From positions 1 to 29,734 of the IMG/VR virus record IMGVR_UViG_3300044681_000028: a DNA stretch of 29,734 nt; one strand, 5' to 3'. Of the stretch, positions 4,373 to 23,807 are shown in pieces (position 1 is the stretch's first letter; each line of letters opens with the position of its first letter). The notes beneath the pieces are model-generated. The model saw only the letters and a list, made by a program, of their open reading frames with translations, had not been told where the DNA came from and did no database searches. Source of the stretch: a virus. Position numbers and translations under genes: made by a program.

Positions 4373-4400
4373 TAAATAGCAATTATTCAAAGGTGTGCCA
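4373..4400 (-). promoter_or_regulatory. Candidate phage late promoter (copy B)
   Basis: Minus strand: TGGCACAC, 8 nt, AATTGC TATTTA, with the same 8-nt gap as the other copies. It lies in the short gap between the protease stop (4406) and the scaffold ATG (4357), giving an expected leader of under 10 nt. It would give scaffold and capsid their own transcript. Confidence 0.6.
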
Positions 4401-7268: not shown

Positions 7269-10111
7269 TATTGTTCGCCTCCTTCTATTGTATAAATAGC
7301 TATTTCGCTAAATTGTGTCTGTACGATGTCCTCGCCACCGTCAACCGTGAAGATGTTAGTGCCTCCATTCAATGCCCGGACCTCATTCAATCCACCTTCC
7401 AACACCTCCACGTTGTCCTGTTCCTTGCCGTTGATGTAGGTAGTGTTTGACTGGGTAACAATTACACCATTGGTATTGATGAGTTGGACGTTGTGAAGCC
7501 CTCCAATTACCTCATTGTCATTGCCGAATATGGTAATGTTCTTCGAGCCTTCGCCTATTGTGTTTCGGCTTCCTACCACTTTGAAAGCTGTAACGCTCTG
7601 CCCTACGTTATTGTCCGCTCCGCTCACCTTTCCTTGAAACGGAGGATACTTGTTTCCGTTTGTTTTTATTTCGGTGGAAGGAGATGGCATCTTTTCCTTA
7701 CCTAAATAACCCCCAGCGTTCAAACTTCGGCTTCCCTTTTTGAAGGTAACAGCCTCCTTAATCTTGATGAGTTCCACCTTCGTTAACCCCTCTTTGAACG
7801 GGTTGTAATTCATTACTTTGTTGAGCCTCCAATAGCTGTTATCTATTACTATTTGGTCGCGGAAATCTAAGGTGTTGATGTCGGTCGGTTCAAGGTAGAA
7901 CATCGCAGTCATTACCTTCGAGTCCTTATCCGTTACCTCGTTTATGTAATTGCGGTGGTAGATGTTGTAAAGGTTCGCGTTCGTTACTTGGAGCGTTCCC
8001 GTGTATCCATTCGCTTGGTAATAGAGTTCGTAAGGTAGCCCGAAGTTGATGTCGATGGTTGGCGTTATTGGCTCGTCCCAATGTCCAGCGTATGGATAAG
8101 TTGAGTTGTAAGTGTCTTGTAGGTTTATTGTTCTTCGATGTACCCAAGTCGGGTCGCTTGGTATTAGACCGCCATAGTAAAGAATCCGAATATTTGCGTC
8201 CGTTGGCTTTGCTCCTTCTTCAATGTCAGCGTCCCAAATTGCTGGGATAATTCGATTCGATGGGTTGTCATTGACTAATGGCGAAGGGGAAAAAACAACC
8301 TCTACCTCTTTGGAACTCTGCACAAAGTCGTTATCTACCTCTATCCGCGAACGTCCATAAGCGTGTCCTCTGTTTGACTGATAACGCTCGTTATAATAGT
8401 CCCCATCCTCCGAATATGTGTAGATGTATTCCCTATCGGTAAGAACTCCCAACGGTTCAAGGGTAATGTCTCTGTCCCTTGCCAGCTTGTACGTCCAGTC
8501 CTTTATCCCCCCCTGAGAGTAGAATGTGTCGCGGGTTTCAATGAGCAGATTCTTCTCGTTGTTCGGGTCTACCTCAACGTAAAGATTGAACATTTTAAAT
8601 AAAGACGTTAAGAACTCGCTCATTTCAACATCGGGCAAGTTATCCGTCATGTCCACAAACTCGCCTTCGGTAATTCCTTCGTTCAAGTATTCATTGTAGA
8701 ACTCACCGCCCACAATGTCGAAGTCAAGATAATAGGGGATATTAGGCGGTGTCACATTACCCGTGTCGGGATGAAACAGAATGAAATAGTTAGTGTAACC
8801 GATTCCCGGTTCGTCAGCTATCAAATCAACATAATACTCATCGCCCTCTAACGCTTGTACGTTTGTAGCCGTTATGACGTATGTATTCTGCACCACGTTT
8901 TGAGAAAGGAACGGTGGTGTTGTATAGCCAGACGTTAGTCCAAGTGTAAATCCCCAGTCCGTTTCTGCCATTACTTCCACCGAGTTGTTGCGTTTTCTCA
9001 TTATCCTCAGCTTTCCTGAGAATTGATTTCGTCCTGACTCTCCAGTTTGCGCTCTGAGTATTGCAATAGAACCCCATTCTGTACACCTAAGGTCAACCGA
9101 TGCAGTTAGGTCGTAGAATCCAGTCGCTTCACTATCCACAAGCCATTTGTAATTTTGAGAAGCTGGAGAGAAAGGGTCTGACGGAACTAAGTAGTTTCCA
9201 GTTACAGACTGTCCATTGTCGAAGAATGGAGTAACTTCATTTGAATAACAAACTCTTGGCGTTGAATTTGGATTCACCCAAAAGCCCTGATTCCCAACTA
9301 CGATAGCTGGGTTGGTTGTTGCATTTATAATGGCATTTTGAGTAACCGTTTTCCCTACTCTGTACAATTTCTCTTGTAGGTTGTCCTCTGAAATTGTCAA
9401 AGGCTTAGTTACTGGGACAATCAATCTATTGAATAGAACTGAGTCAAAGAATGAACTCTGATAAGTGAACCCCGCAAAGTCGAAAATCTTGTTGAGTATC
9501 GTCTTAGCGTAGTAAGCGGGTCGCAAATCTCCGACCTCATAAATTCTATTTCCTTGATTTGTGAACTCCGCACCTCCGCCCCAATCAATTAACGGGTAAA
9601 CGTAACCGTCTCCGACTGGTGCGCTCCAGCTATCGACTTGGTTTTGATAGGTGTAATAGTGGTCAAACTCTGAGAAGTCTAAGTAATTGACATTGCTCTC
9701 ATCCACTCCGCTAAGTTCCTTGTCTCCAAGAACCGAGAAGATGTTGAGCAACTTACCGATAAATACCACCTCGTAGGTGTAGGCGTGTCCCTTTTGGACA
9801 ATCTTCCGAAGTTGGACAACCCCAGCCATTACCTCCACCCCGTCAGCTATTACTCGCGCCTCCGCTTTCTTATTAGGGTTGAAATTAACGCTAATGTTAG
9901 TAGTGTTAGCATCGTAGTTGTTTGAGATGTTAACGTCGTATATATGCCCGAAGAGTTCATCGTTGTTCTTCGTTGCCGGGCATTTGATGGTCTTGGAGTA
10001 TTCCGTGCTTCTCTTCTCAGGGTTACGGATGTCAGCAATGCCGTAGTTGAAGGAGAAATCGAACCCCTCGAATACGTCTAAACGTCTGCCCTCTATTCTA
10101 ACTTCAACCAC
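7268..10111 (-). CDS. Large tail tip protein (Tal-like) with C-terminal beta-solenoid
   Basis: A 947-aa protein, the largest gene. The N-terminal 450 residues (beginning VEVRIEGRRLDVFEGFDFSFNY) look like a tail-hub/Tal domain as seen after Dit-like proteins in Bacteroidota phages. Residues about 450-780 continue the baseplate-type region. The C-terminal 150 residues are Asn/Gly/Val-rich short repeats (VVGSRNTIGEGSKNI, IFGNDNEVIGGLHNV), a left-handed beta-solenoid pattern like trimeric adhesin heads. Start is GTG at 10111, overlapping the previous stop. The last 20 codons contain a candidate late promoter for the next gene. The likely role is tail tip hub plus host surface contact. Confidence 0.8.
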   Translation of the reverse strand: MVEVRIEGRRLDVFEGFDFSFNYGIADIRNPEKRSTEYSKTIKCPATKNNDELFGHIYDVNISNNYDANTTNISVNFNPNKKAEARVIADGVEVMAGVVQLRKIVQKGHAYTYEVVFIGKLLNIFSVLGDKELSGVDESNVNYLDFSEFDHYYTYQNQVDSWSAPVGDGYVYPLIDWGGGAEFTNQGNRIYEVGDLRPAYYAKTILNKIFDFAGFTYQSSFFDSVLFNRLIVPVTKPLTISEDNLQEKLYRVGKTVTQNAIINATTNPAIVVGNQGFWVNPNSTPRVCYSNEVTPFFDNGQSVTGNYLVPSDPFSPASQNYKWLVDSEATGFYDLTASVDLRCTEWGSIAILRAQTGESGRNQFSGKLRIMRKRNNSVEVMAETDWGFTLGLTSGYTTPPFLSQNVVQNTYVITATNVQALEGDEYYVDLIADEPGIGYTNYFILFHPDTGNVTPPNIPYYLDFDIVGGEFYNEYLNEGITEGEFVDMTDNLPDVEMSEFLTSLFKMFNLYVEVDPNNEKNLLIETRDTFYSQGGIKDWTYKLARDRDITLEPLGVLTDREYIYTYSEDGDYYNERYQSNRGHAYGRSRIEVDNDFVQSSKEVEVVFSPSPLVNDNPSNRIIPAIWDADIEEGAKPTDANIRILYYGGLIPSDPTWVHRRTINLQDTYNSTYPYAGHWDEPITPTIDINFGLPYELYYQANGYTGTLQVTNANLYNIYHRNYINEVTDKDSKVMTAMFYLEPTDINTLDFRDQIVIDNSYWRLNKVMNYNPFKEGLTKVELIKIKEAVTFKKGSRSLNAGGYLGKEKMPSPSTEIKTNGNKYPPFQGKVSGADNNVGQSVTAFKVVGSRNTIGEGSKNITIFGNDNEVIGGLHNVQLINTNGVIVTQSNTTYINGKEQDNVEVLEGGLNEVRALNGGTNIFTVDGGEDIVQTQFSEIAIYTIEGGEQ
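7293..7320 (-). promoter_or_regulatory. Candidate phage late promoter (copy C), inside the 3' end of the tail tip gene
   Basis: Minus strand: AGACACAA, 8 nt, AATAGC TATTTA; its first box is the AGACAC variant shared with the copy at 13022-13049. It overlaps the last codons of the 947-aa gene and precedes the fibre ATG at 7268 by 24 nt. This is the weakest match in its TTTTGC part, but the spacing and TATTTA are intact. Confidence 0.45.
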
Positions 10112-13139: not shown

Positions 13140-14324
13140 CTACCGTATTGTGTACTTTCCAGCGTTCGCCTTCAGCTTCTCCATTGCCACGTAGCGGAGC
13201 GCATCGAGTGCGTGGTTGTTGTCATCTTCGGGTTGGTTCGTTACTTGGTTGGTCTTGTAGTCCCGTTTCCATGCGTAGTTCCTCAGTTCTCGGATGATGT
13301 TAACCGAGTCTTGGTGTACCATTATTTGAACGCTCTTTAGCTTATCGATGCCTGACCTTACGCTGTCCTGACCTTTGGCAACTGGTCGGATTCTGAAGCC
13401 AGCCCTTCGGATTTCTTCGATGCTCTTGGGCTCTGCTGAATCGGCTATGATTTCGTCCGACCTTTGTAGCCCGCACTTCCTTGCAATGTCTGCGTTCGTT
13501 AACCCTGTTTCGTAAAGCACTTCACGAACCCATAATTTACCTTCTTGATAGAGTACCTCCACGAGTGCAGTCGGGTCGTTCGTAAACCCGAAGTCGAGTC
13601 CGTATGCTTTCCACTTGTACCCGGTCGGAAACTCTTTGGTTTCTTGCCAGTTCTCGTATATCGCGCCTTCTCTTCTTGACCTTTGCCCAAGTCCGTAAAC
13701 CTTCCACTTGTATTCGTCAGCCGTGCCTCGTGATACGTTAAAAGGTGTCGGCTCGTAGCTGTTTATCTTGTCGCGGATGTGCTGGTCGAGGAAGGTGTTG
13801 TCCAGCATCGTGGAATGTATAAGCACCACATCATCCCGTTTCAGAACGTTGTCGTATATCCAATGCTCGTCTGTGGAAGGGTTGTAGTCGAGAATCCACT
13901 TGCCTTTGCATCGCTGCTCTAATTGGTCGAAATCATCCTTGCTTGTTTCAATGGCTTCATTCAACCAAAAGTAATCTGTTTCGATACCGTGAAGCTTCTG
14001 AGAATCGTCAAGCCCGTAGAACTCAAACGTAGACCCGTGAGCAGAGTAAATTAAATCAGTCTTGTTAAACGCCTCATCCTCCCAAACCTCAAGGCTCTGG
14101 AGTACTTTCTTGAACGTGTCGAGTACCGTTGGTTTAATCCACGTCCTCCTAAACCTCGCAATTGCGATTCTCTTCGGTTCTTGTAATCCTGTAAGGTAGA
14201 TGGCTTGACAGATGCTCCACGTTTTCGAGGAACGGCTTCCACCCTCAAGCACAATTCCCCGAATGGATTTATCATTAAGGGCTTGCCACAGGTCATCAAA
14301 TACGCCAGTTCCTTCAATTTTCAC
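13140..14324 (-). CDS. Terminase large subunit
   Basis: The packaging motor and nuclease, 394 aa. The ATPase half shows a Walker A variant GGSRSSKT (28-35) and Walker B YFWLNE (118-123). The RNase H-like nuclease half shows acidic residues in YGLDFG (D244), IIADSAEPKS (D295) and DDNNHALDALRY (368-374). It belongs to the PBSX/Terminase_3 type. Start is GTG at 14324, overlapping the stop of the preceding small gene (GTGA). The circular assembly with no defined end fits a headful packaging enzyme. It follows the small terminase candidate with one small gene between. Confidence 0.95.
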   Translation of the reverse strand: MKIEGTGVFDDLWQALNDKSIRGIVLEGGSRSSKTWSICQAIYLTGLQEPKRIAIARFRRTWIKPTVLDTFKKVLQSLEVWEDEAFNKTDLIYSAHGSTFEFYGLDDSQKLHGIETDYFWLNEAIETSKDDFDQLEQRCKGKWILDYNPSTDEHWIYDNVLKRDDVVLIHSTMLDNTFLDQHIRDKINSYEPTPFNVSRGTADEYKWKVYGLGQRSRREGAIYENWQETKEFPTGYKWKAYGLDFGFTNDPTALVEVLYQEGKLWVREVLYETGLTNADIARKCGLQRSDEIIADSAEPKSIEEIRRAGFRIRPVAKGQDSVRSGIDKLKSVQIMVHQDSVNIIRELRNYAWKRDYKTNQVTNQPEDDNNHALDALRYVAMEKLKANAGKYTIR

Positions 14325-14506: not shown

Positions 14507-14904
14507 TTCTTCTCAGGTCGATGTATTACTATCTCTACCTTGTCAGGCTTGCCTCCGTTAACCGTCTGCTCAACCTCTTCTTTCGGCTTGCCGTAGACCC
14601 TATCGAACAGAACGTCCAATATGTGGATGCTTCCTTTCTCGTAGTCTCGTTGGGCTTTCTTCGCAATAAGAGCAATCCAAAACGGCAACTGGTCGTTCTT
14701 TGCCAACTCCACCAACTCGCTTCTTGACTTGCCGAGTACGTTCTTGATGATGTCCTGAACCTGACCCTTCGACAGCTTGACATTATGCTCATCAAGGAAG
14801 TGTTCCTTTAGTAGCGTTTCCACGTTTTTCGGTCTCCCTTTCGGGTTGCCGCTCTGTCCTTTCTTGAAGGGTTTTAGGTTCTCAGGTGTTCCGCCTTCGT
14901 TCAT
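14503..14904 (-). CDS. Terminase small subunit candidate (DUF5681-like)
   Basis: A 133-aa protein. The N-terminal motif FKKGQSGNPKGRPK is the signature of a family found immediately before large terminase genes, assigned as a DNA-recognising small subunit. Residues 25-130 are helical with a basic middle. The ATG at 14904 overlaps the stop of the methyltransferase gene. Its position one small gene upstream of the large subunit supports the assignment. Confidence 0.75.
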   Translation of the reverse strand: MNEGGTPENLKPFKKGQSGNPKGRPKNVETLLKEHFLDEHNVKLSKGQVQDIIKNVLGKSRSELVELAKNDQLPFWIALIAKKAQRDYEKGSIHILDVLFDRVYGKPKEEVEQTVNGGKPDKVEIVIHRPEKK

Positions 14905-16388
14905 TGTTCAATCGCTGTTTTAACGTACTCTTTTCCGTTTATCTTAACGCTCAAAGTCGGGTCGAGTTTCGTCATTCTGTCGATAATTACTTGGCAGTAT
15001 TTAGGGTCAAGTTCCATGCCATAGCATTTGCGTTTCAGTTGATGGGCGGCTACCATTGTTGAGCCTGAGCCTAAGAAGAAGTCTACCGTTAAGCCATCTT
15101 CGGGACAACTGCTTTTAATTGCCCGTTCGCATAGTGGTATGGGCTTTGGTGTTGCGTGTCCTCCTTCAGTTCCGTTTTTAACGTGTCGGCTAAAATGCCA
15201 AACGTTATTCATATTGTCGTGCGTGTTGTCAAAGTACGCTCGGGTTGAATAGTATTCTTTTTTTAACGCATCGTATTCTTTTTTTAACGCATCGTATTCT
15301 TTGTGAAACGCATCGCCCTTTGCTTCGTTTCTCATTGAATTATAGTGCTCTCGTGTTGGAAAATGCCACTGACTTGTTGTAAAGTAATGCGAAGCAGATG
15401 TTTTTCCTGTAATTTCTATAACCTTCTTGACGTTCCACCCAAGCTTATTTTTTTGCGTATTTAAATATTCTCTTATTGGTTCAAACCCTTCAAAATAATT
15501 GTGTGAATTATTGTTAAAACCTTGAACCCCGAGCATAATAAAAAGGCATTTTTCATCAGCCGTTGCGTAACTTCTTGTATTGTCTGAATTTTGGCTTTGC
15601 CCGTGTCCCTTGTCCCAAGTTATCAAATTTCTGAATGTTGCTTTTTCGTTCTTTATGTAAGGCTTCAGAACTCCGCTATAAATATCCATCAAAGGTTCAT
15701 CAATACCCCAGCAATACCAACTACCGTTTTCCTTCAAATGAGTAAACTGCAAGGCTATCCACTCTTTATTGAACTCCAGTAAATCCGCATAGTTTAGATT
15801 GTCATTAAGTACCCCCTCGCTTTCTTTTTTCATTCCGTAGGGCGGGTCATTGTGGGCGAGGTCAGCCTTCTCTCCATTCATCAGCTTTGCCACTTGGTCA
15901 GAGTCCGTTGAATCTCCACAAAGCAAACGGTGTTCTCCTATCTCGATAAGGTCGCCAAGAACAACGTCTGTCTTTAGTTCTTCGGGCACTTCGTAATCGT
16001 CCTCTTCTGCTTCCAGTTCTTCTGCTTTCCAATTATCAGGAGTGTCAAGCCCCCACTCGTTCAGTTCTTCAGCATCCCAAGTATTCGCCAGTTCGTCCCA
16101 GTCCCATTCCCCGAATCCTACGTTGTCTTTGATGATGAACTCGCGCTGTTTCTCCTCTGACCAATCAACAACCTCTACGGGTACTTCTGACCATCCAGCT
16201 TCTTGCATTGCCTTGAGCCGCATATTGCCGCCCAAGACTATCATCTCTGTGTTAACGACTATCGGTCTGACGTTAGCCATCTCAGGAAAGTCCCGAAGGC
16301 TCTGAACCAGCTTCTTAAACTTCTCGTCTTTGATGTATCTCGGGTTCTCCGAGTTTGGTCTAACCTTGCTTATTGCTATTGTTTCCAT
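14901..16388 (-). CDS. ParB-like domain fused to N6-adenine/N4-cytosine DNA methyltransferase
   Basis: A 495-aa protein. Residues 1-115 are a ParB/Srx-like domain (IAISKVRPNSENPRYI, GGNMRLKAM at 53-61). The methyltransferase domain follows: motif IV is DPPY (180-183) and motif I is FLGSGSTM (437-444) near the C-terminus, the order of the beta class. Residues 361-377 include a duplicated YDALKKE heptad encoded by 21-bp repeats. This fusion is common near phage terminases and probably protects phage DNA from restriction; the ParB part may target it. ATG at 16388 overlaps the preceding small gene. Confidence 0.9.
   Translation of the reverse strand: METIAISKVRPNSENPRYIKDEKFKKLVQSLRDFPEMANVRPIVVNTEMIVLGGNMRLKAMQEAGWSEVPVEVVDWSEEKQREFIIKDNVGFGEWDWDELANTWDAEELNEWGLDTPDNWKAEELEAEEDDYEVPEELKTDVVLGDLIEIGEHRLLCGDSTDSDQVAKLMNGEKADLAHNDPPYGMKKESEGVLNDNLNYADLLEFNKEWIALQFTHLKENGSWYCWGIDEPLMDIYSGVLKPYIKNEKATFRNLITWDKGHGQSQNSDNTRSYATADEKCLFIMLGVQGFNNNSHNYFEGFEPIREYLNTQKNKLGWNVKKVIEITGKTSASHYFTTSQWHFPTREHYNSMRNEAKGDAFHKEYDALKKEYDALKKEYYSTRAYFDNTHDNMNNVWHFSRHVKNGTEGGHATPKPIPLCERAIKSSCPEDGLTVDFFLGSGSTMVAAHQLKRKCYGMELDPKYCQVIIDRMTKLDPTLSVKINGKEYVKTAIEQ
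15253..15315 (-). repeat. Three 21-bp tandem repeats inside the methyltransferase gene
   Basis: The units 15253-15273 and 15274-15294 are identical (plus strand tattctttttttaacgcatcg); the third, 15295-15315, differs in three bases. They encode the YDALKKE repeat in a probable helical insertion. Each complete unit carries a run of seven T, so the copy number is likely to vary between isolates. Confidence 0.85.
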
Positions 16389-16775: not shown

Positions 16776-17008
16776 ATCAATCTCTCAAATAACACACTCA
16801 GCAAAGGAACGTAAATAAGAGCCTCAGGGTCGTTGACGCAATAAAGAACCCCGAACCAAAAAGACATACAAAGCCGACAGTCCAACGGTTTAAACGAATA
16901 ACTCTCGTCCATCCCAATCCACTTTTTAATAAGTAGGTCGATTGCCAGTACCTCAATCCAAAGGTAAGCGGCAACGCTCGCGGATAATGCGCTCAAGATG
17001 TATAGCAT
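16757..17008 (-). CDS. Small membrane protein
   Basis: An 83-aa protein with two hydrophobic segments: residues 1-27 (LYILSALSASVAAYLWIEVLAI) and about 48-75, separated by the motif KPLDCRLCMSFWFG. The P-L-x-C-x-x-C-x-S-F-W-x-G pattern recurs in small phage membrane proteins of unknown role. The ATG at 17008 lies 56 nt inside the preceding sigma-like gene. Confidence 0.65.
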   Translation of the reverse strand: MLYILSALSASVAAYLWIEVLAIDLLIKKWIGMDESYSFKPLDCRLCMSFWFGVLYCVNDPEALIYVPLLSVLFERLMWRFEL

Positions 17009-17477
17009 AGTAATTATCTCTTAGTTGTTCAAGTGCTTTGACTACTGTGTTTCCGATTGACTTGTAAGGAATATCGACCTTCTTGCCGACCTTTCGATAG
17101 CTTCCTTCTTCCAGCCACAATTTAAGTACCTCGCGGTCGTACCAATGCAGCTCGTCCATCAGGGTTTCCAAAAGTGCAATGTCGTCCTCTTTCTCCCAGT
17201 CGTAGTCCTCTCGCTCGTGGTCAACCTTCTTGTGATTGTGTAGGTCGTAGAGTTTTGAGAAGCTGGAGCGTTTACTGGTAGCCATTGTCATCATCGTCCG
17301 AACTACGTAGAATCTCAGATAGCCACCTTCGTTTATCTGTTGCCACTTCTCTTCGGGCATCTCCAGCAGAAGAAGAACCACCTCTTGTATAAGGTCATCC
17401 GGGCAATTACATAGCTTCTGAGCGAGTTCGTATAACTCTTGGTCAGATAGTAGGTCGATTGCCGCTTGTTCTTTCAC
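16953..17477 (-). CDS. Sigma-factor-like transcription regulator
   Basis: A 174-aa protein. Residues 20-75 (DDLIQEVVLLLLEM, GGYLRFYVVRTMMTM) resemble sigma region 2. Residues 112-155 (YDREVLKLWLEEGSYRKVGK, KVDIPYKSIGNTVVKALEQL) form a region-4-type helix-turn-helix. An acidic linker lies between them, as in ECF-type factors. The size fits the ECF class. GTG start at 17477. A repeated two-box promoter-like element in this genome makes it the natural candidate for a late sigma factor; that link is inferred. It could also be a terminase-like or other HTH protein with a sigma-related fold. Confidence 0.72.
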   Translation of the reverse strand: MKEQAAIDLLSDQELYELAQKLCNCPDDLIQEVVLLLLEMPEEKWQQINEGGYLRFYVVRTMMTMATSKRSSFSKLYDLHNHKKVDHEREDYDWEKEDDIALLETLMDELHWYDREVLKLWLEEGSYRKVGKKVDIPYKSIGNTVVKALEQLRDNYYAIHLERIIRERCRLPLD

Positions 17478-18869: not shown

Positions 18870-18897
18870 TAAGTAGCAAAATTAACAATTTGTGCCA
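18870..18897 (-). promoter_or_regulatory. Candidate promoter (copy F) upstream of the initiator leader
   Basis: Minus strand: TGGCACAA, 8 nt, TTTTGC TACTTA. The same stretch also matches the host consensus (TTTTG-N22-TAATTTTG), so it might be recognised by either polymerase form. It follows the C5 methyltransferase stop (18906) and would start the leader at about 18862. Confidence 0.5.
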
Positions 18898-18905
18898 CTT
18901 GGAAG

Positions 18906-19592
18906 TCAAAATAATTCAGTTTGCTTAACGTCTTTCTTGCGAATTATTCCAAGTGCTGTTTCGAATATGGTTCGCCCAGCTTCGTAGTCTACGAGGTTAC
19001 GGGCTATCTTATCTGTTCTTTGTTCACCTTTATACTTTCTAAAGTCGTAATCGTGAAATTCACACCACACATTAACCTCATCTTTTGCGCCTCCAATTAT
19101 CCCGTTACCTTCCTTTCTTTCATTGATGCTGCTCGGTAAATTGAAGTTCGTCCAGTACAAATGCCTTCCTCGTTTCTTTGCAGGTATCAAAGGCTCATAA
19201 AATGGAATAACATTCTCAACAACATATTGACCTTCAAAGTAGTTATCAAGAAAGATAACCTCCTCATAAAGTTTCATATCAGGATAAACAGCTTTGAACG
19301 TTTCGCGTGACTTTTGACTAATACGCACCCTTGAATGACTCGGACAAGGCGGTGAAGTCCAAATAAAATCAAACTCCTTGTAGTGGTCAAGAAGATACTG
19401 GTGTGCATCTGCCACAACTACCGTATCATTAGGAAACCTTTCTTGGTACAACCTAGCTAACTCAGGGTCTAATTCAACAGCAGTAACTTCCATATCAATA
19501 CCAGCTTCTTCGGCTACCTCATCCCACTTGTATCGGTTGCCGCCTAAACAAGCGTATAGATTTAATACTTTAAACTTCCTCATCTCTTTCAT
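18906..19592 (-). CDS. DNA cytosine-5 methyltransferase (Dcm-type), compact
   Basis: A 228-aa protein. Motif I is LNLYACLGGNRYKW (10-23), motif IV PPCPSHS (81-87) with the catalytic Cys, motif VI ENV (126-128). The target recognition region is short compared with the usual 300-400 aa enzymes. The C-terminus is QTELF, which resembles the beta-sliding-clamp binding motif QLxLF. ATG at 19592 is preferred over a TTG two codons upstream. It would methylate phage DNA, perhaps at replication forks; the recognition sequence is unknown, though GGCC is nearly absent from this genome. Confidence 0.88.
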   Translation of the reverse strand: MKEMRKFKVLNLYACLGGNRYKWDEVAEEAGIDMEVTAVELDPELARLYQERFPNDTVVVADAHQYLLDHYKEFDFIWTSPPCPSHSRVRISQKSRETFKAVYPDMKLYEEVIFLDNYFEGQYVVENVIPFYEPLIPAKKRGRHLYWTNFNLPSSINERKEGNGIIGGAKDEVNVWCEFHDYDFRKYKGEQRTDKIARNLVDYEAGRTIFETALGIIRKKDVKQTELF

Positions 19593-19615: not shown

Positions 19616-20059
19616 TCAAGCACTCTCAGCTTCCAGTTCTCCATATTTCGTATGAATTGATTTGACCAGTTTGTCATTGCATTGCAACGCCCACTTCATC
19701 GTCTTGATTGAATAAAGAACAGTTGAGTGGTCGCGGGAAAACATCTTGCCAATATCTGATAAAGAGTAGCCGCTTCCGTATAACTCCCGATGCACCATGT
19801 AGATAGCATACTGCCGAGCAATGGTTACATTCCTGAGTCGCGCTGGTGATTTCATGGCTGAATAGCCGATTCCAGTAGCTTGTTCTACACGGTGAATGAT
19901 GTCCTTCGCGCTCTTGTCGATGTGCTTTTCACAGTAGACTCCTTGAATTGCTGCCAGTAGCGTTTGGCAATCCTCGCCGAAGTAGCCTTGATGTAGGTCT
20001 ATTATCTTCACAAGCTGCTCCTTGTGGTCTTTCGTTAGTCTTATCACTTGCATCTCCAT
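19616..20059 (-). CDS. Stand-alone DnaA domain IV-like DNA-binding protein
   Basis: A 147-aa protein. The C-terminal half is the DnaA box-binding domain: LRNVTIARQYAIYMVHREL, GYSLSDIGKMFSRDHSTVLY (RDHSTV at 109-114) and SIKTMKWAL. No AAA+ ATPase domain is present; residues 1-60 are a different helical segment. Chromosomal DnaA uses this domain to bind TTATCCACA boxes. A phage version could bring the host replisome to the phage origin or regulate it. It overlaps the preceding gene by 16 nt. Confidence 0.88.
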   Translation of the reverse strand: MEMQVIRLTKDHKEQLVKIIDLHQGYFGEDCQTLLAAIQGVYCEKHIDKSAKDIIHRVEQATGIGYSAMKSPARLRNVTIARQYAIYMVHRELYGSGYSLSDIGKMFSRDHSTVLYSIKTMKWALQCNDKLVKSIHTKYGELEAESA

Positions 20060-20349
20060 ACGTTTATCTGTTTACCGAAATCGCCTTCTATCTTGTACCC
20101 GGTTTTCTCAATCAACCCTTTCTTGTGGAGGTTGCTGAACGACCTTCGGATGGAAGTAATCGGAGTCTTTGCCCACTTGTCGGAAGATAACGGCTCCATG
20201 ATTTGAAAGTGCCGCAGAACTCGCTCAGGAGTTACGCCAAGCTGGTCATGGTTTCTGAAGTAAATCAAGACAAGTTCGTCCTGACTCTTTGCTTTTTCTT
20301 GGGACTTCTTGAGTTCTGTCCCGATTTCGTTGTTCGTGTTGTAGTACAT
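20044..20349 (-). CDS. Small winged-helix-like DNA-binding protein
   Basis: A 101-aa protein. Residues 25-95 read as a winged helix: DELVLIYFRNHDQLGVTPER, then TPITSIRRSFSNLHKKGLIE as recognition helix and KTGYKIEGDFGKQINVWRC as wing. It overlaps the HTH protein by the four bases ATGA. A regulatory or replication role is likely from context, but not shown. Confidence 0.7.
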   Translation of the reverse strand: MYYNTNNEIGTELKKSQEKAKSQDELVLIYFRNHDQLGVTPERVLRHFQIMEPLSSDKWAKTPITSIRRSFSNLHKKGLIEKTGYKIEGDFGKQINVWRCK

Positions 20350-20528
20350 CAGTTCTGATTTATGTAGTTGATTATTTTCTCTTGAGTTCTTACGCTGACC
20401 TTCTCGCCAGCAAAGTAAGCGTACACGGTTTGAGTTGACAGTCCCGTGTCTTTGGCTATTCTGTAAGCGGTTATCTTCTTGGCGTTCGCCTCCGCTATCA
20501 CGTCATCAATCTTGACTATTTGAATCAT
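20349..20528 (-). CDS. Small helix-turn-helix protein, possible early repressor
   Basis: A 59-aa protein containing one clear HTH: KKITAYRIAKDTGLSTQTVY and AYFAGEKVSVRTQEKIINYI, the form of XRE/lambda-repressor-type domains. I use ATG at 20528 instead of the TTG at 20534. As the only stand-alone HTH of this type, it is a candidate to bind the 18-bp palindromes at 21457-21474 and 23774-23791. That assignment is inference. Confidence 0.72.
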   Translation of the reverse strand: MIQIVKIDDVIAEANAKKITAYRIAKDTGLSTQTVYAYFAGEKVSVRTQEKIINYINQN

Positions 20529-20664: not shown

Positions 20665-20840
20665 TGTTCTTCAGTTTTATAAGTGTAACAATCAATGCAC
20701 TCGTAATCATTGTCAGGAGCGCACTCTTCAAAGTTCAATTCTCCGCAAGTTTCGCACTCGTAGCAGTCGCAACCATCGCAAGCGCGGATTGATTCCCCGC
20801 AGCATTCGCGGTAAGTGTATTCGTTCAATGCCCACTCCAT
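20658..20840 (-). CDS. Cysteine-rich small protein, probable multi-zinc-ribbon
   Basis: A 60-aa protein with 11 Cys, several as CxxC pairs (ACDGCDCYECETC, ECIDC). This suggests at least two metal sites or a zinc-ribbon-like fold. ATG at 20840 overlaps the preceding stop (TAATG); the same frame is open further upstream but has no reason to start there. Role unknown; small phage zinc proteins are often host-takeover or regulatory factors. Confidence 0.7.
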   Translation of the reverse strand: MEWALNEYTYRECCGESIRACDGCDCYECETCGELNFEECAPDNDYECIDCYTYKTEEQC

Positions 20841-21103
20841 TAGTTCAAGTTTACAAGTTTGATTTCTCCTTTGTTTATTGCTTCCTTGACTTCTTGGTTG
20901 CTTAGACCCAGCCAACGATTTCTGTACTTGCTCGTGGTTTTTGAAAAAGTCCAATAGTATTCGTCAAGGTAGATTGTTCCATCTTCCCACTTTCCAATTA
21001 TGGTATCGTAAGATGAGAACCACTCTGTTCCGTTGTATCTAATTACAACTTGACTTGCTACTGGTTTGCCCGTGTTGGGACTTGTTAAACTACATACTTC
21101 CAT
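20840..21103 (-). CDS. Small conserved phage protein (DUF8033-like)
   Basis: An 87-aa protein with the pattern VVIRYNGTEWFSSYDTIIGK, LDEYYWTFSKTTSKYRNRWL. The arrangement x-FxSYxxxI...D...W-x-(F/Y)SKTT-x-KYRN is familiar from small phage and plasmid proteins of unknown function. It starts at an ATG 24 nt after a pair of tandem stem-loops at 21128-21180. Confidence 0.65.
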   Translation of the reverse strand: MEVCSLTSPNTGKPVASQVVIRYNGTEWFSSYDTIIGKWEDGTIYLDEYYWTFSKTTSKYRNRWLGLSNQEVKEAINKGEIKLVNLN

Positions 21104-21127
21104 TCTTCTTGTTTTATCTCGCGTTAC

Positions 21128-21180
21128 GGATGCGCGACCCCCGTTTGATTAATGAGGTGTAGGATGCCTCGCCCCGTTTT
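21128..21180 (-). ncRNA. Tandem stem-loops with conserved flank and loop but different stems
   Basis: Two 34-bp-spaced copies on the minus strand: AAAACGGGGC-GAGG-CATCCTACA-CCTC and AAACGGGGGT-CGCG-CATCCGTAA-CGCG. The AAACGGGG flank and CATCC loop start are conserved while the 4-5-bp stems differ compensatorily. They lie between genes ending at 21183 and starting at 21103. This looks like a structured RNA element; the role is unknown. Confidence 0.45.
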
Positions 21181-21401: not shown

Positions 21402-21425
21402 AACTCTGTTGCTTTAGTGGTTTAA

Positions 21426-21489
21426 CCGTTAATGATGGCTCAAATATAAAACAATTGTTTTGAATATCCAAAACACTACGGCAAAAAAA
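21426..21489 (-). promoter_or_regulatory. Early promoter P1 with palindromic operator
   Basis: The minus strand carries TTTTG (21473-21469), a 20-nt spacer and TATATTTG (21448-21441), an excellent match to the Bacteroidota housekeeping promoter TTG-N17-23-TAnnTTTG. The -33 element is inside a nearly perfect 18-bp palindrome (21457-21474, GTTTTGAATATCCAAAAC on the plus strand). The same unit recurs at 23743-23807. It serves the replication block starting at 21401. Confidence 0.78.
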
Positions 21490-21513
21490 TATTACTCAGG
21501 AAGTTTAGCGGGT

Positions 21514-21903
21514 TCAGGATTCTAAGGATTTGACCTTCTGTTTGTACTCCTTTAGCATCTCCTCAAGTTCCCAAGTTGCGAACTTTACCGTAGTTAAGCT
21601 AAGCTGGTGCATCTCTTCCGCCAACCCTTCGCGCTCTCGGTCAAGGTTCAGCCCGAAGTCGTATTGTCTGCCTTGCTGCATTACATTACAGCCGTAGCAT
21701 TGTGGTCGGCAGTTGTCCTCGTGCCATCTCGTGGCGTAACGGGACCGGGACATAAAGTGTCCGCATTGAATCTTCTTCCAATGGTAAGACCGTCCGCAAG
21801 TGTAGCACTCACAGTACCCATCAAGATTAACCGCCCTCAACCGAATGTAACGGCTGAAGGCGGCATCTAACTCTTTGACTACCTTAGAACGGGAGGTCGT
21901 CAT
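21514..21903 (-). CDS. ninG: NinG/Rap-like recombination nuclease factor
   Basis: A 129-aa protein. The Cys/His pattern CECYTCGRSYHWKKIQCGHF (31-50) and NCRPQCYGCNVMQQGRQYDF are the hallmarks of the lambda NinG (Rap) family, which acts on recombination intermediates. Shorter than lambda NinG but with the core complete. It overlaps the SSB-like gene by 20 nt and ends the recombination operon that starts at P2. Confidence 0.85.
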   Translation of the reverse strand: MTTSRSKVVKELDAAFSRYIRLRAVNLDGYCECYTCGRSYHWKKIQCGHFMSRSRYATRWHEDNCRPQCYGCNVMQQGRQYDFGLNLDREREGLAEEMHQLSLTTVKFATWELEEMLKEYKQKVKSLES

Positions 21904-22174
21904 CGTCTACGGTTACGGCTTTGGCAGTTACCTCCGCTTTCAACTTCGGCTCGTAGGTGTCAACGCTTGCGTAGAGTTTGCCTTGTGCTGACTGCTTGAC
22001 CTGAAGACGAACCTCAAGACCGTGCTTGCCTTCTTTAAGGTACTGGTCGTTCTGCTCCAGCCACTTGATTAGCTTGGTCGGGTTGATAACCATGTCAGCT
22101 TTGACCCACTCAGGAGCGTTTGTCGATGGTGTGTAGATGTTCAAGCCATCCACAAAAATCACTTTGTTTTCCAT
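21884..22174 (-). CDS. Single-stranded DNA-binding-like protein
   Basis: A 96-aa protein, beta-rich with alternating residues (KVIFVDGLNIYTP, KHGLEVRLQVKQSAQGKLYA), compatible with an OB-fold. It ends DDDDLPF, an acidic hydrophobic tail like the SSB C-terminal tip (DDDIPF) that recruits replication and repair proteins. It lies between the exonuclease and NinG. The SSB role is well supported by the tail and context, though the fold is shorter than cellular SSB. Confidence 0.75.
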   Translation of the reverse strand: MENKVIFVDGLNIYTPSTNAPEWVKADMVINPTKLIKWLEQNDQYLKEGKHGLEVRLQVKQSAQGKLYASVDTYEPKLKAEVTAKAVTVDDDDLPF

Positions 22175-22809
22175 TATTTGATGTTTAAAAGGTTACGAAG
22201 ATAATCATTTGCAAACGCTAAACGTTCGCGGAGTTGTTCTTGCATCTCAATGTCTGCTTCTACTCTGATTTCAATCAATTTGAAGCGTTCATCTTGAATG
22301 CGTGGGTCGAAGCTAATAAACCGACAAGCTAACGCCCCAGTTGCCAGCATTTGACCTTGCATCTGCCAAATGTACTTAGGGTCAATGTAACCCTCGAAAG
22401 CTGTCTTGAGATGGTTCGTAGTGTTGTACGGGCATTTGATTTCGATGAGTTCTCCGTCTACCATTCCGTCCGGGCTTGCACCTGAGTAGTCGTTTATCAA
22501 AGTGAACGGCATCTCTTCAATGGTTACGCCTTTCAACTCTGAGTAGTACGCCTTACATATTGGTTCGTACTCGTTGCCCCAGTCCAATGCCTTGCCGAAG
22601 ATTTCGGTTCGTTGCCCGGTCAGTAATTCCGCAGCTTTCTCGTAGATGTAACTGATAGCGGTCTGTCCAAACACTTCGTCTTTCTTGCGTCCGTTGGTCA
22701 TCAAGTCGCCAAAGCGGGAAGCCGTAAACTTCCCTAACCTTTGCGCGTACCATTCCTCTGAGCGTTGCTGAGTTTCGCTTATTGCTTCATAGATTCCTTG
22801 CTCTTCCAT
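22174..22809 (-). CDS. YqaJ-like viral recombinase exonuclease
   Basis: A 211-aa protein with the YqaJ/lambda exonuclease signature: RSEEWYAQRLGKFTASRFG (16-34), GNEYEP (78-83), SPDGMVDG (112-119) and LIEIKCP (121-127) contributing the metal-binding D and E-x-K. It degrades one strand of double-stranded ends for annealing recombination. The ATG at 22809 directly follows the stop of the annealing-protein gene (TAAGATG), so I prefer it to the in-frame codons at 22830 and 22854. Partner genes flank it. Confidence 0.92.
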   Translation of the reverse strand: MEEQGIYEAISETQQRSEEWYAQRLGKFTASRFGDLMTNGRKKDEVFGQTAISYIYEKAAELLTGQRTEIFGKALDWGNEYEPICKAYYSELKGVTIEEMPFTLINDYSGASPDGMVDGELIEIKCPYNTTNHLKTAFEGYIDPKYIWQMQGQMLATGALACRFISFDPRIQDERFKLIEIRVEADIEMQEQLRERLAFANDYLRNLLNIK

Positions 22810-22810
22810 C

Positions 22811-23212
22811 TTACGCTCGTTTAAAGTCATCAGATTCATCTTCACCAAATACACCGACCTCGTAAAGTCCTGACAGTTTCAGAACTACTCTTGATAGTGC
22901 GCGCTTCTCCGCCATCGCTACTGGGTAGGTTTGGCGCGTGTTAGCTGGTGCCGACTCTCCGAATGTTTCCATTTGAACGGGTAGACCGTTGCCGTTGGAC
23001 ATTTCCCCGATGGCTTTGATAACTACGAACTTGCAGTCGTCTGTCAGGTGTACCATTTCATACCTAACTCGGATGCCCTTGTGCGCTTGGATGCGCTCAA
23101 TGCCTTGTCGGGTGATTATTACGAACCCTTGTGGTGATTTAAAAAAGTGGTCTTTGTTTAGACCGTTCTCGGTTGCGAGGTGTTGTAACCTCTCTTTCTG
23201 TGTTTGATTCAT
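22811..23212 (-). CDS. Putative single-strand annealing protein
   Basis: A 133-aa protein with VIITRQGIERIQAHKGIRVR, and the segment QTYPVAMAEKRALSRVVLKL followed by GVFGEDES. The A-E-K-R-A-x-x-R-x-x-L-K-x-x-G-L pattern occurs in ERF/Rad52-like annealing proteins, and its placement directly upstream of a YqaJ exonuclease strongly suggests an SSAP partner. It is shorter than the usual ERF proteins (about 200 aa), so other recombination accessory roles cannot be excluded. Confidence 0.68.
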   Translation of the reverse strand: MNQTQKERLQHLATENGLNKDHFFKSPQGFVIITRQGIERIQAHKGIRVRYEMVHLTDDCKFVVIKAIGEMSNGNGLPVQMETFGESAPANTRQTYPVAMAEKRALSRVVLKLSGLYEVGVFGEDESDDFKRA

Positions 23213-23242
23213 CTGTTCTGTTTTTTATGATGAGTATTAAAG

Positions 23243-23500
23243 TTACGAATTTAAGCATTGAATATCAACCGAATTATGCTCTTCGTCATATATCCGAATG
23301 AAGGTGTAAAGCCCTGACTTGATAGGCTCCGCGCCTGAGTGCTTGACAATCTGCCAAAACTCAAACGGTTGTACTCGTATTGTTCCAGCATTAACTGGAG
23401 CGGTGCGTAAGTCGTTGAGTGCTTTACTTGCGACTAACCGAACGAACGCTGGTATTGTCTTGTCGTGAAGAACTCTCTCTTGGAAGGTTAAGTGGTTCAT
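23243..23500 (-). CDS. Small protein of the recombination operon
   Basis: An 85-aa protein reading NHLTFQERVLHDKTIPAFVR and then VQPFEFWQIVKHSGAEP; no catalytic motif seen. It sits between the first early gene and the annealing protein, with the A-rich leader (CCACTAAAAACC) shared with other early starts. No family recognised. Confidence 0.6.
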   Translation of the reverse strand: MNHLTFQERVLHDKTIPAFVRLVASKALNDLRTAPVNAGTIRVQPFEFWQIVKHSGAEPIKSGLYTFIRIYDEEHNSVDIQCLNS

Positions 23501-23524
23501 AGTTTTGGTTTTTAGTGGTTATCG

Positions 23525-23716
23525 CTATCCGTTTAGTTCTTCAAATGTCAATTCATTGAAACCCGTAATAGCCTTGTGGTAATGTATTTTACTGAAATCC
23601 ATATCCCCCCAAATTTCAGCCTCTTCAACTTTGTCAGTTACATTGATGCTATTACTTAAAGAGGGAGCGATATAAATCGGTGAACCAAATTCGCGTGTTA
23701 CCATTACCATTTTCAT
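23525..23716 (-). CDS. First gene after early promoter P2, small protein
   Basis: A 63-aa protein with MVMVTREFGSPIYIAPSL and a C-terminus ending GFNELTFEELNG. Its first position in the operon hints at an immediate-early role. The ATG has a leader nearly identical to that of the P1 first gene. No family recognised. Confidence 0.62.
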   Translation of the reverse strand: MKMVMVTREFGSPIYIAPSLSNSINVTDKVEEAEIWGDMDFSKIHYHKAITGFNELTFEELNG

Positions 23717-23742
23717 TTTTCTGTTGTTTTTAGTGGGTTACC

Positions 23743-23807
23743 CCGTTAATGATGGCTCAAATATAAAATAATTGTTTTGAATATTCAAAACATTTAGGGC
23801 AAAAAAA
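23743..23807 (-). promoter_or_regulatory. Early promoter P2 with perfect palindromic operator
   Basis: The minus strand has TTTTG (23790-23786), 20 nt, TATATTTG (23765-23758). The -33 lies inside a perfect 18-bp palindrome, GTTTTGAATATTCAAAAC (23774-23791). It is nearly identical to P1 over about 56 bp and is preceded by a T-tract (TTTTTTTGCC). It would drive the recombination block. Confidence 0.8.

Follow-up and report, generated by a model that had tools for sequence, protein, structure and literature searches.

In phage lambda, Cro blocks RNA polymerase at the promoters of both the recombination and the replication operons (pL and pR), which its operators overlap. The locus analyzed here lies in an uncultivated phage of Bacteroidota-type bacteria (IMG/VR record IMGVR_UViG_3300044681_000028), of which the whole 29,734-nucleotide stretch examined is called the window. 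It resembles the Cro systems of lambda and 434, with their operators OL and OR, in two respects: a small Cro/C1-type HTH protein is encoded in an early operon, and a common operator is placed over the promoters of the recombination and replication operons, where it overlaps promoter elements. Unlike lambda, both operons here are read in the same direction, each promoter has one operator where lambda has three, and the promoters are of the Bacteroidota -33/-7 kind. Nor is there a divergent CI gene with its PRM promoter; the gene calls put no CI-type gene of that orientation between the two operators, because the minus strand carries every gene called in the early region of the window. Neither a tyrosine nor a serine integrase turned up in the 11 records searched for one (the window and ten longer relatives), which may be fragments.

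Two other groups of regulators invite comparison. The controller (C) proteins of restriction-modification systems and the HipB-type antitoxins are likewise small autoregulatory HTH proteins, and they are among the nearest folds to the protein described below; unlike them, the HTH gene of the phage has no toxin partner or restriction enzyme identified beside it, and the operators serve phage early operons. The promoters themselves agree with the Bacteroidota sigma-A consensus TTTG / TAnnTTTG (PMC7366714, PMC6847099) but carry an extra layer that the general consensus does not have, a palindrome that covers -33 and spacer. Our literature search found little on the control of transcription in Bacteroidota phages, and the present circuit is not described in the papers found.

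Twin Promoters of the Early Region

A motif scan of the window revealed two intergenic minus-strand promoters of the Bacteroidota sigma-A type, P1 and P2, both TTTTG-N20-TATATTTG (Table 1). Each has the TTTG-N19/20-TAnnTTTG arrangement ahead of an operon, and a relaxed form of the motif has a single further match in the window, at 18910. A previous sequence-only reading of this DNA had noticed the same two motifs, some 56 bp of near identity around them, and an 18-bp palindrome over the -33 element that is perfect in P2 and has one mismatch in P1. These observations were all borne out, with some extension. The similarity runs in register over 71 nt (21419-21489 versus 23736-23806; 86% identical, part of it leader) and has a core, 21428-21475, in which 46 of 48 positions are identical to the counterpart, while the P2 palindrome is perfect over 20 bp (23773-23792) rather than 18. 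In both promoters the palindrome spans the -33 element and the adjoining upstream spacer.

The chance expectation for a window is 0.05 perfect 18-bp palindromes and about three with at most one mismatch, so that the P1 palindrome taken alone is unsurprising; it is the pairing that is surprising. When up to three mismatches to GTTTTGAATATTCAAAAC are allowed, the two operators are its sole copies in the window, and 0.03 would be expected by chance. According to the rule established in F. johnsoniae, which places the G of TAHHTTTG at -5 (PMC6847099), transcription is predicted to start at 23753 (P2) and 21436 (P1), and the palindrome would thus be centered near -29.5, within the footprint of the polymerase.

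The P2 operon consists of a series of ORFs with the YqaJ exonuclease and the NinG endonuclease at its end; in the P1 operon, several small ORFs precede the gene of the 59-aa HTH protein, which is followed by a 101-aa ORF and by the gene of a protein with a DnaA C-terminal domain (DnaA-C). A search of Rfam gave no match. Elsewhere in the window, three 21-nt tandem repeats (15249-15315), which encode KKEYDAL repeats, were observed within a ParB-N/methyltransferase gene (14901-16388).

Table 1. Promoters, putative operators and genes of the early region, in window coordinates
Feature	Position	Strand	Remarks
P2 promoter	23758-23790	-	TTTTG 23786-23790, N20, TATATTTG 23758-23765; ahead of recombination operon
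P1 promoter	21441-21473	-	TTTTG 21469-21473, N20, TATATTTG 21441-21448; ahead of HTH and DnaA-C operon
Putative operator O2	23774-23791	.	Perfect palindrome GTTTTGAATATTCAAAAC
Putative operator O1	21457-21474	.	O2 palindrome with one mismatch; coding strand is TTTTGGATATTCAAAA
63-aa ORF	23525-23716	-	First of P2 operon; without family match
85-aa ORF	23243-23500	-	P2 operon; homologues behind same promoter in relatives
133-aa ORF	22811-23212	-	P2 operon; adjoins exonuclease gene
YqaJ-type recombination exonuclease	22174-22854	-	Pfam YqaJ, E 3e-19
96-aa ORF	21884-22174	-	P2 operon; acidic tail DDDDLPF; single-strand-binding-like by eye only; without family match
NinG/Rap junction endonuclease	21514-21903	-	Pfam NinG, E 5e-11; phrog_5034
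59-aa Cro/C1-type HTH protein	20349-20528	-	Proposed repressor; downstream of P1, several small ORFs between
101-aa conserved ORF	20044-20349	-	After HTH gene; phrog_9069; winged-helix-like by eye; rival regulator
DnaA C-terminal-domain protein	19616-20059	-	Replication initiation type; Pfam Bac_DnaA_C, E 5e-16

Conservation of the Putative Operator

With the HTH profile and the sequences of the exonuclease and DnaA-C as queries, some 100 related viral contigs were gathered. No close isolate relative was found; among the best matches, terminase identity to Bacteroides phages does not exceed 39%. Conservation of the palindrome in related phages had been proposed as a check, and the twin arrangement is indeed kept in approximately 45 distinct uncultivated relatives.

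Likeness to the palindrome, with three mismatches or fewer, yielded 88 distinct operator contexts; YqaJ lies downstream of 41 of them, and another 43 fall in the interval from YqaJ to the HTH gene. In their main forms these contexts all have the same right half-site, TATTCAAAA, and the -33 element, the spacer, the leader and the genes vary. The left half-site occurs as TTTTGAA, TTTTGGA, TTGTGAT, TAGTGAT, TGGTGAT or GTTTGAA, with the canonical TTTG sometimes lost; an asymmetric form found in relatives is TTGTGATTATTCAAAA, and two contexts read TTTTGAAAATTCAAAA, in which the center alone is altered. In the relatives the conserved unit comprises 16 bp, of which the right half does not vary; since the left half is variable and the right half fixed, what is most conserved is a spacer half resembling a protein site and not a promoter element. 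Before the HTH operon the commonest form is TTTTGGATATTCAAAA (19 of 43 contexts). The half-site together with the -7 element is found on the coding strand only, and not once in controls.

As these sites had been gathered by their likeness to the palindrome, conservation was retested starting from a neighboring gene, ORF23831. The regions downstream of it contain a site within three mismatches in 45 of 47 cases, versus 8 of 940 shuffles. At one of the two exceptions (L096) the site looks like this operator with additional bases, possibly sequencing indels; the other (L113) is the same contig as L079, whose operator stands in the right place, and was taken as an artefact.

Other matches were set aside. 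The exact 18-bp palindrome occurs in viral contigs mostly as chance matches in unrelated phages, L011 being the sole true relative, and four other phage contigs (L112, L117, L118 and L123) have one common match, TTTTGAATATTCAAAATCATCTTTATCTTTG, in an identical context, which was also taken as chance. In two relatives, at 11418 in L110 and at 14276 on the reverse strand of L113, operator and promoter occur once more (TTGTGAGTATTCAAAAGAGTTGTATATTTG), a long way downstream of the early region and after runs of TGCCACTAATGCCA; a third regulated unit is possible there.

The Probable Regulator and Its Rivals

When redundancy is removed and 1,050 bp or more of upstream sequence is required, an operator precedes the HTH gene by 45-1014 bp in 44 of 44 canonical-HTH loci, and where 4.3 kb are available upstream, a second operator stands before the recombination operon in 26 of 26. 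Two natural variants separate the operator from its neighbors. In the first, L176/L181, no YqaJ was detected (its place is taken by ERF in L176) and DnaA-C is 25% identical; the HTH protein is 76% identical and both operators are retained. In L092/L093/L095 YqaJ is 77% identical and the HTH protein 49%, with the recognition helix VSQQTFYRF in place of LSTQTVYAYF; the palindrome is absent, and another dyad, GGTAGTTAAAAAACTATC, which also occurs in L191, is found at the same place before the HTH operon. As judged from these comparisons of sequence, it is the 59-aa HTH gene, rather than the recombination genes, that the operator tracks. The pairing of regulator and operator is supported in both directions, being retained when neighboring genes are exchanged and altered on both sides when the HTH changes. 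Operator and HTH gene are neighbors, so that linkage accounts for part of their co-occurrence, and this linkage is broken by only two independent contrasts, the module swap in L176/L181 and the changed HTH in L092/L093/L095.

The HTH protein scores 21.4 bits against Pfam HTH_26, just under the curated cut-off of 22 that its divergent L092 homologue passes (22.5 bits), and it matches the transcriptional regulator family phrog_8 (E 8.5e-5). Its AF2 model has four helices (pLDDT 87), for which the nearest folds by Foldseek and VIA-align are 434 Cro, HipB and controller proteins; VIA-align gives HipB a Z of 8.3 (rmsd 2.5, 58 aligned) and C.Kpn2I a Z of 7.3. The model supports a predicted Cro/C1-type fold class but not kinship, since matches of this order (Z up to 8.3) fit any small HTH domain, and the protein shows no significant sequence similarity to Cro chains of solved structure. 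Its profile found no match among isolate phages, nor in 395 Bacteroidota genomes in a search run without a positive control.

Could another product of the HTH operon, the 101-aa ORF or the DnaA-C protein, bind the palindrome? Both genes lie downstream of the HTH gene, in whose company they are usually conserved, and DnaA-C carries a DNA-binding domain. Nevertheless, operator and HTH gene are kept in L160 and L162, where the 101-aa ORF is undetectable (the L160 operator was found on direct inspection), and in L062 and L071, where the same is true of DnaA-C. DnaA-type domains are, moreover, known for non-palindromic boxes, which counts against DnaA-C as the binder. We consider this explanation improbable. 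A host regulator, through which the phage would time or sense infection, is a slightly less likely candidate: P1 and P2 are of the host sigma-A type, but the operator with its promoter occurs in just 13 contigs of 84,980 bacterial genomes, scattered ahead of unrelated genes and taken as chance matches, and changes in the operator track a phage gene, that of the HTH protein.

A Proposed Early Circuit

We think it probable, on the pattern of conservation described above, that the palindromes are operators of a single Cro-like autorepressor that caps both early operons. Host RNA polymerase would start both of them, P2 supplying the YqaJ exonuclease and NinG, and P1 the HTH and DnaA-C proteins. 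The 59-aa HTH protein made from P1 would then bind TTTTGAATATTCAAAA, approximately from -37 to -22 and probably as a dimer. It would thereby lie over both -33 and the spacer upstream and exclude RNA polymerase from both promoters. As the protein accumulated, early transcription would fall and its own operon would be capped by negative feedback. The identity of the binding protein, its dimerization, the sign of the regulation and its timing are what we infer. That one repressor coordinates both early operons, and that autoregulation is possible, had already been suggested by the sequence-only reading. This view is supported by the twin operators and HTH gene present in every testable canonical-HTH relative, and by L017 and L110, in which an extra operator-promoter stands immediately before the HTH gene. 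A symmetric dimer would be expected to bind more weakly before the many recombination operons in which the left half-site is degenerate (TTGTGAT, TAGTGAT).

The same protein might instead act as an activator, or as a switch doing both. A weak -33 (TTGTG, TAGTG) or an odd -7 (GATATTGC) is seen at several of the promoters, which could need help. Against activation, however, the operator center lies inside the polymerase footprint, and the HTH protein has no effector domain in its AF2 model. The distance between palindrome and -7, moreover, ranges from 6 to 9 bp among relatives; steric repression fits this variation of 3 bp better than activation does. This reading ranks slightly below that of a host regulator.

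In many relatives the HTH-operon promoter has the other -7 just mentioned and a different leader, ATCAAACGGGGGTCGCGCATCCGTAACGCG, which in the window is located downstream of P1 (~21118-21149), beside the ORF 20840-21103. The window's P1 combines the usual HTH-operon form of the operator with a P2-like -7 and leader, and this mixed make-up suggests that the long near identity of the promoters probably arose by a rearrangement in this lineage. On this comparison, the extended similarity is specific to this phage, and the operator is the general feature. A recent duplication of a strong promoter, devoid of regulatory meaning, could explain 71 nt of similarity that includes leader, but it has almost no likelihood left, given that the palindrome is retained in relatives whose two promoters are unlike in -7, spacer and leader, and that P1 of the window has the form of the operator usual at HTH promoters.

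Small hairpins were also observed in the leaders. That of P2 (23717-23753, minus strand) folds into AACGGGGTAACCCACT, GGG-GUAA-CCC. The leader preceding the ORF 20840-21103 (21118-21160, minus strand) has two hairpins recognized by eye, GAGG-CATCCTACA-CCTC and TCGCG-CATCCGTAA-CGCGA, from which the MFE fold differs; the latter recurs in relatives.

A second promoter-like motif of fixed spacing, TGGCACA-N11-TTGCTA, is found on the minus strand of the window at 2087-2110, 4377-4400 and 18874-18897, with a weaker occurrence at 7285-7320. Of 13 related records, 9 contain such sites, 17 altogether and each on the coding strand, and controls contain none; the sites are candidates for a middle/late promoter class. 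A 174-aa protein (16953-17477, minus strand) has a weak match to sigma-70 region 4 (E 0.013, below the cut-off) and could be a phage sigma factor for these sites.

Significance for Bacteroidota Phages

Two features of a Cro-type early repressor circuit are present: a common operator at both early promoters and, with weak family scores, a Cro/C1-type HTH gene in one of the operons. The genomic evidence thus supports a Cro-like twin-operator circuit, new for this group of uncultivated phages; a lambda-type immunity switch is not shown. More tentatively, and with rather more doubt than confidence, one may envisage a lineage-wide and immunity-free circuit of lytic Bacteroidota phages. Its 59-aa repressor would govern interchangeable YqaJ/ERF modules and replication genes through asymmetric operators with an invariant spacer half-site, regulator and operator would be matched to each other and evolve together, with alternative specificities, and the shut-off of early genes would hand over to the TGGCACA-N11-TTGCTA class read by the phage's sigma-like factor.

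The promoters of the Bacteroidota differ from those of model bacteria, and the present analysis defines for them a complete candidate circuit, composed of two promoters, two operators, one repressor gene and a natural variant pair. The matched pair of HTH protein and operator could find use as a regulated promoter part in the Bacteroidota. Cro-like logic, apparently without genes for lysogeny, suggests that a coordinated early shut-off may be useful in itself.
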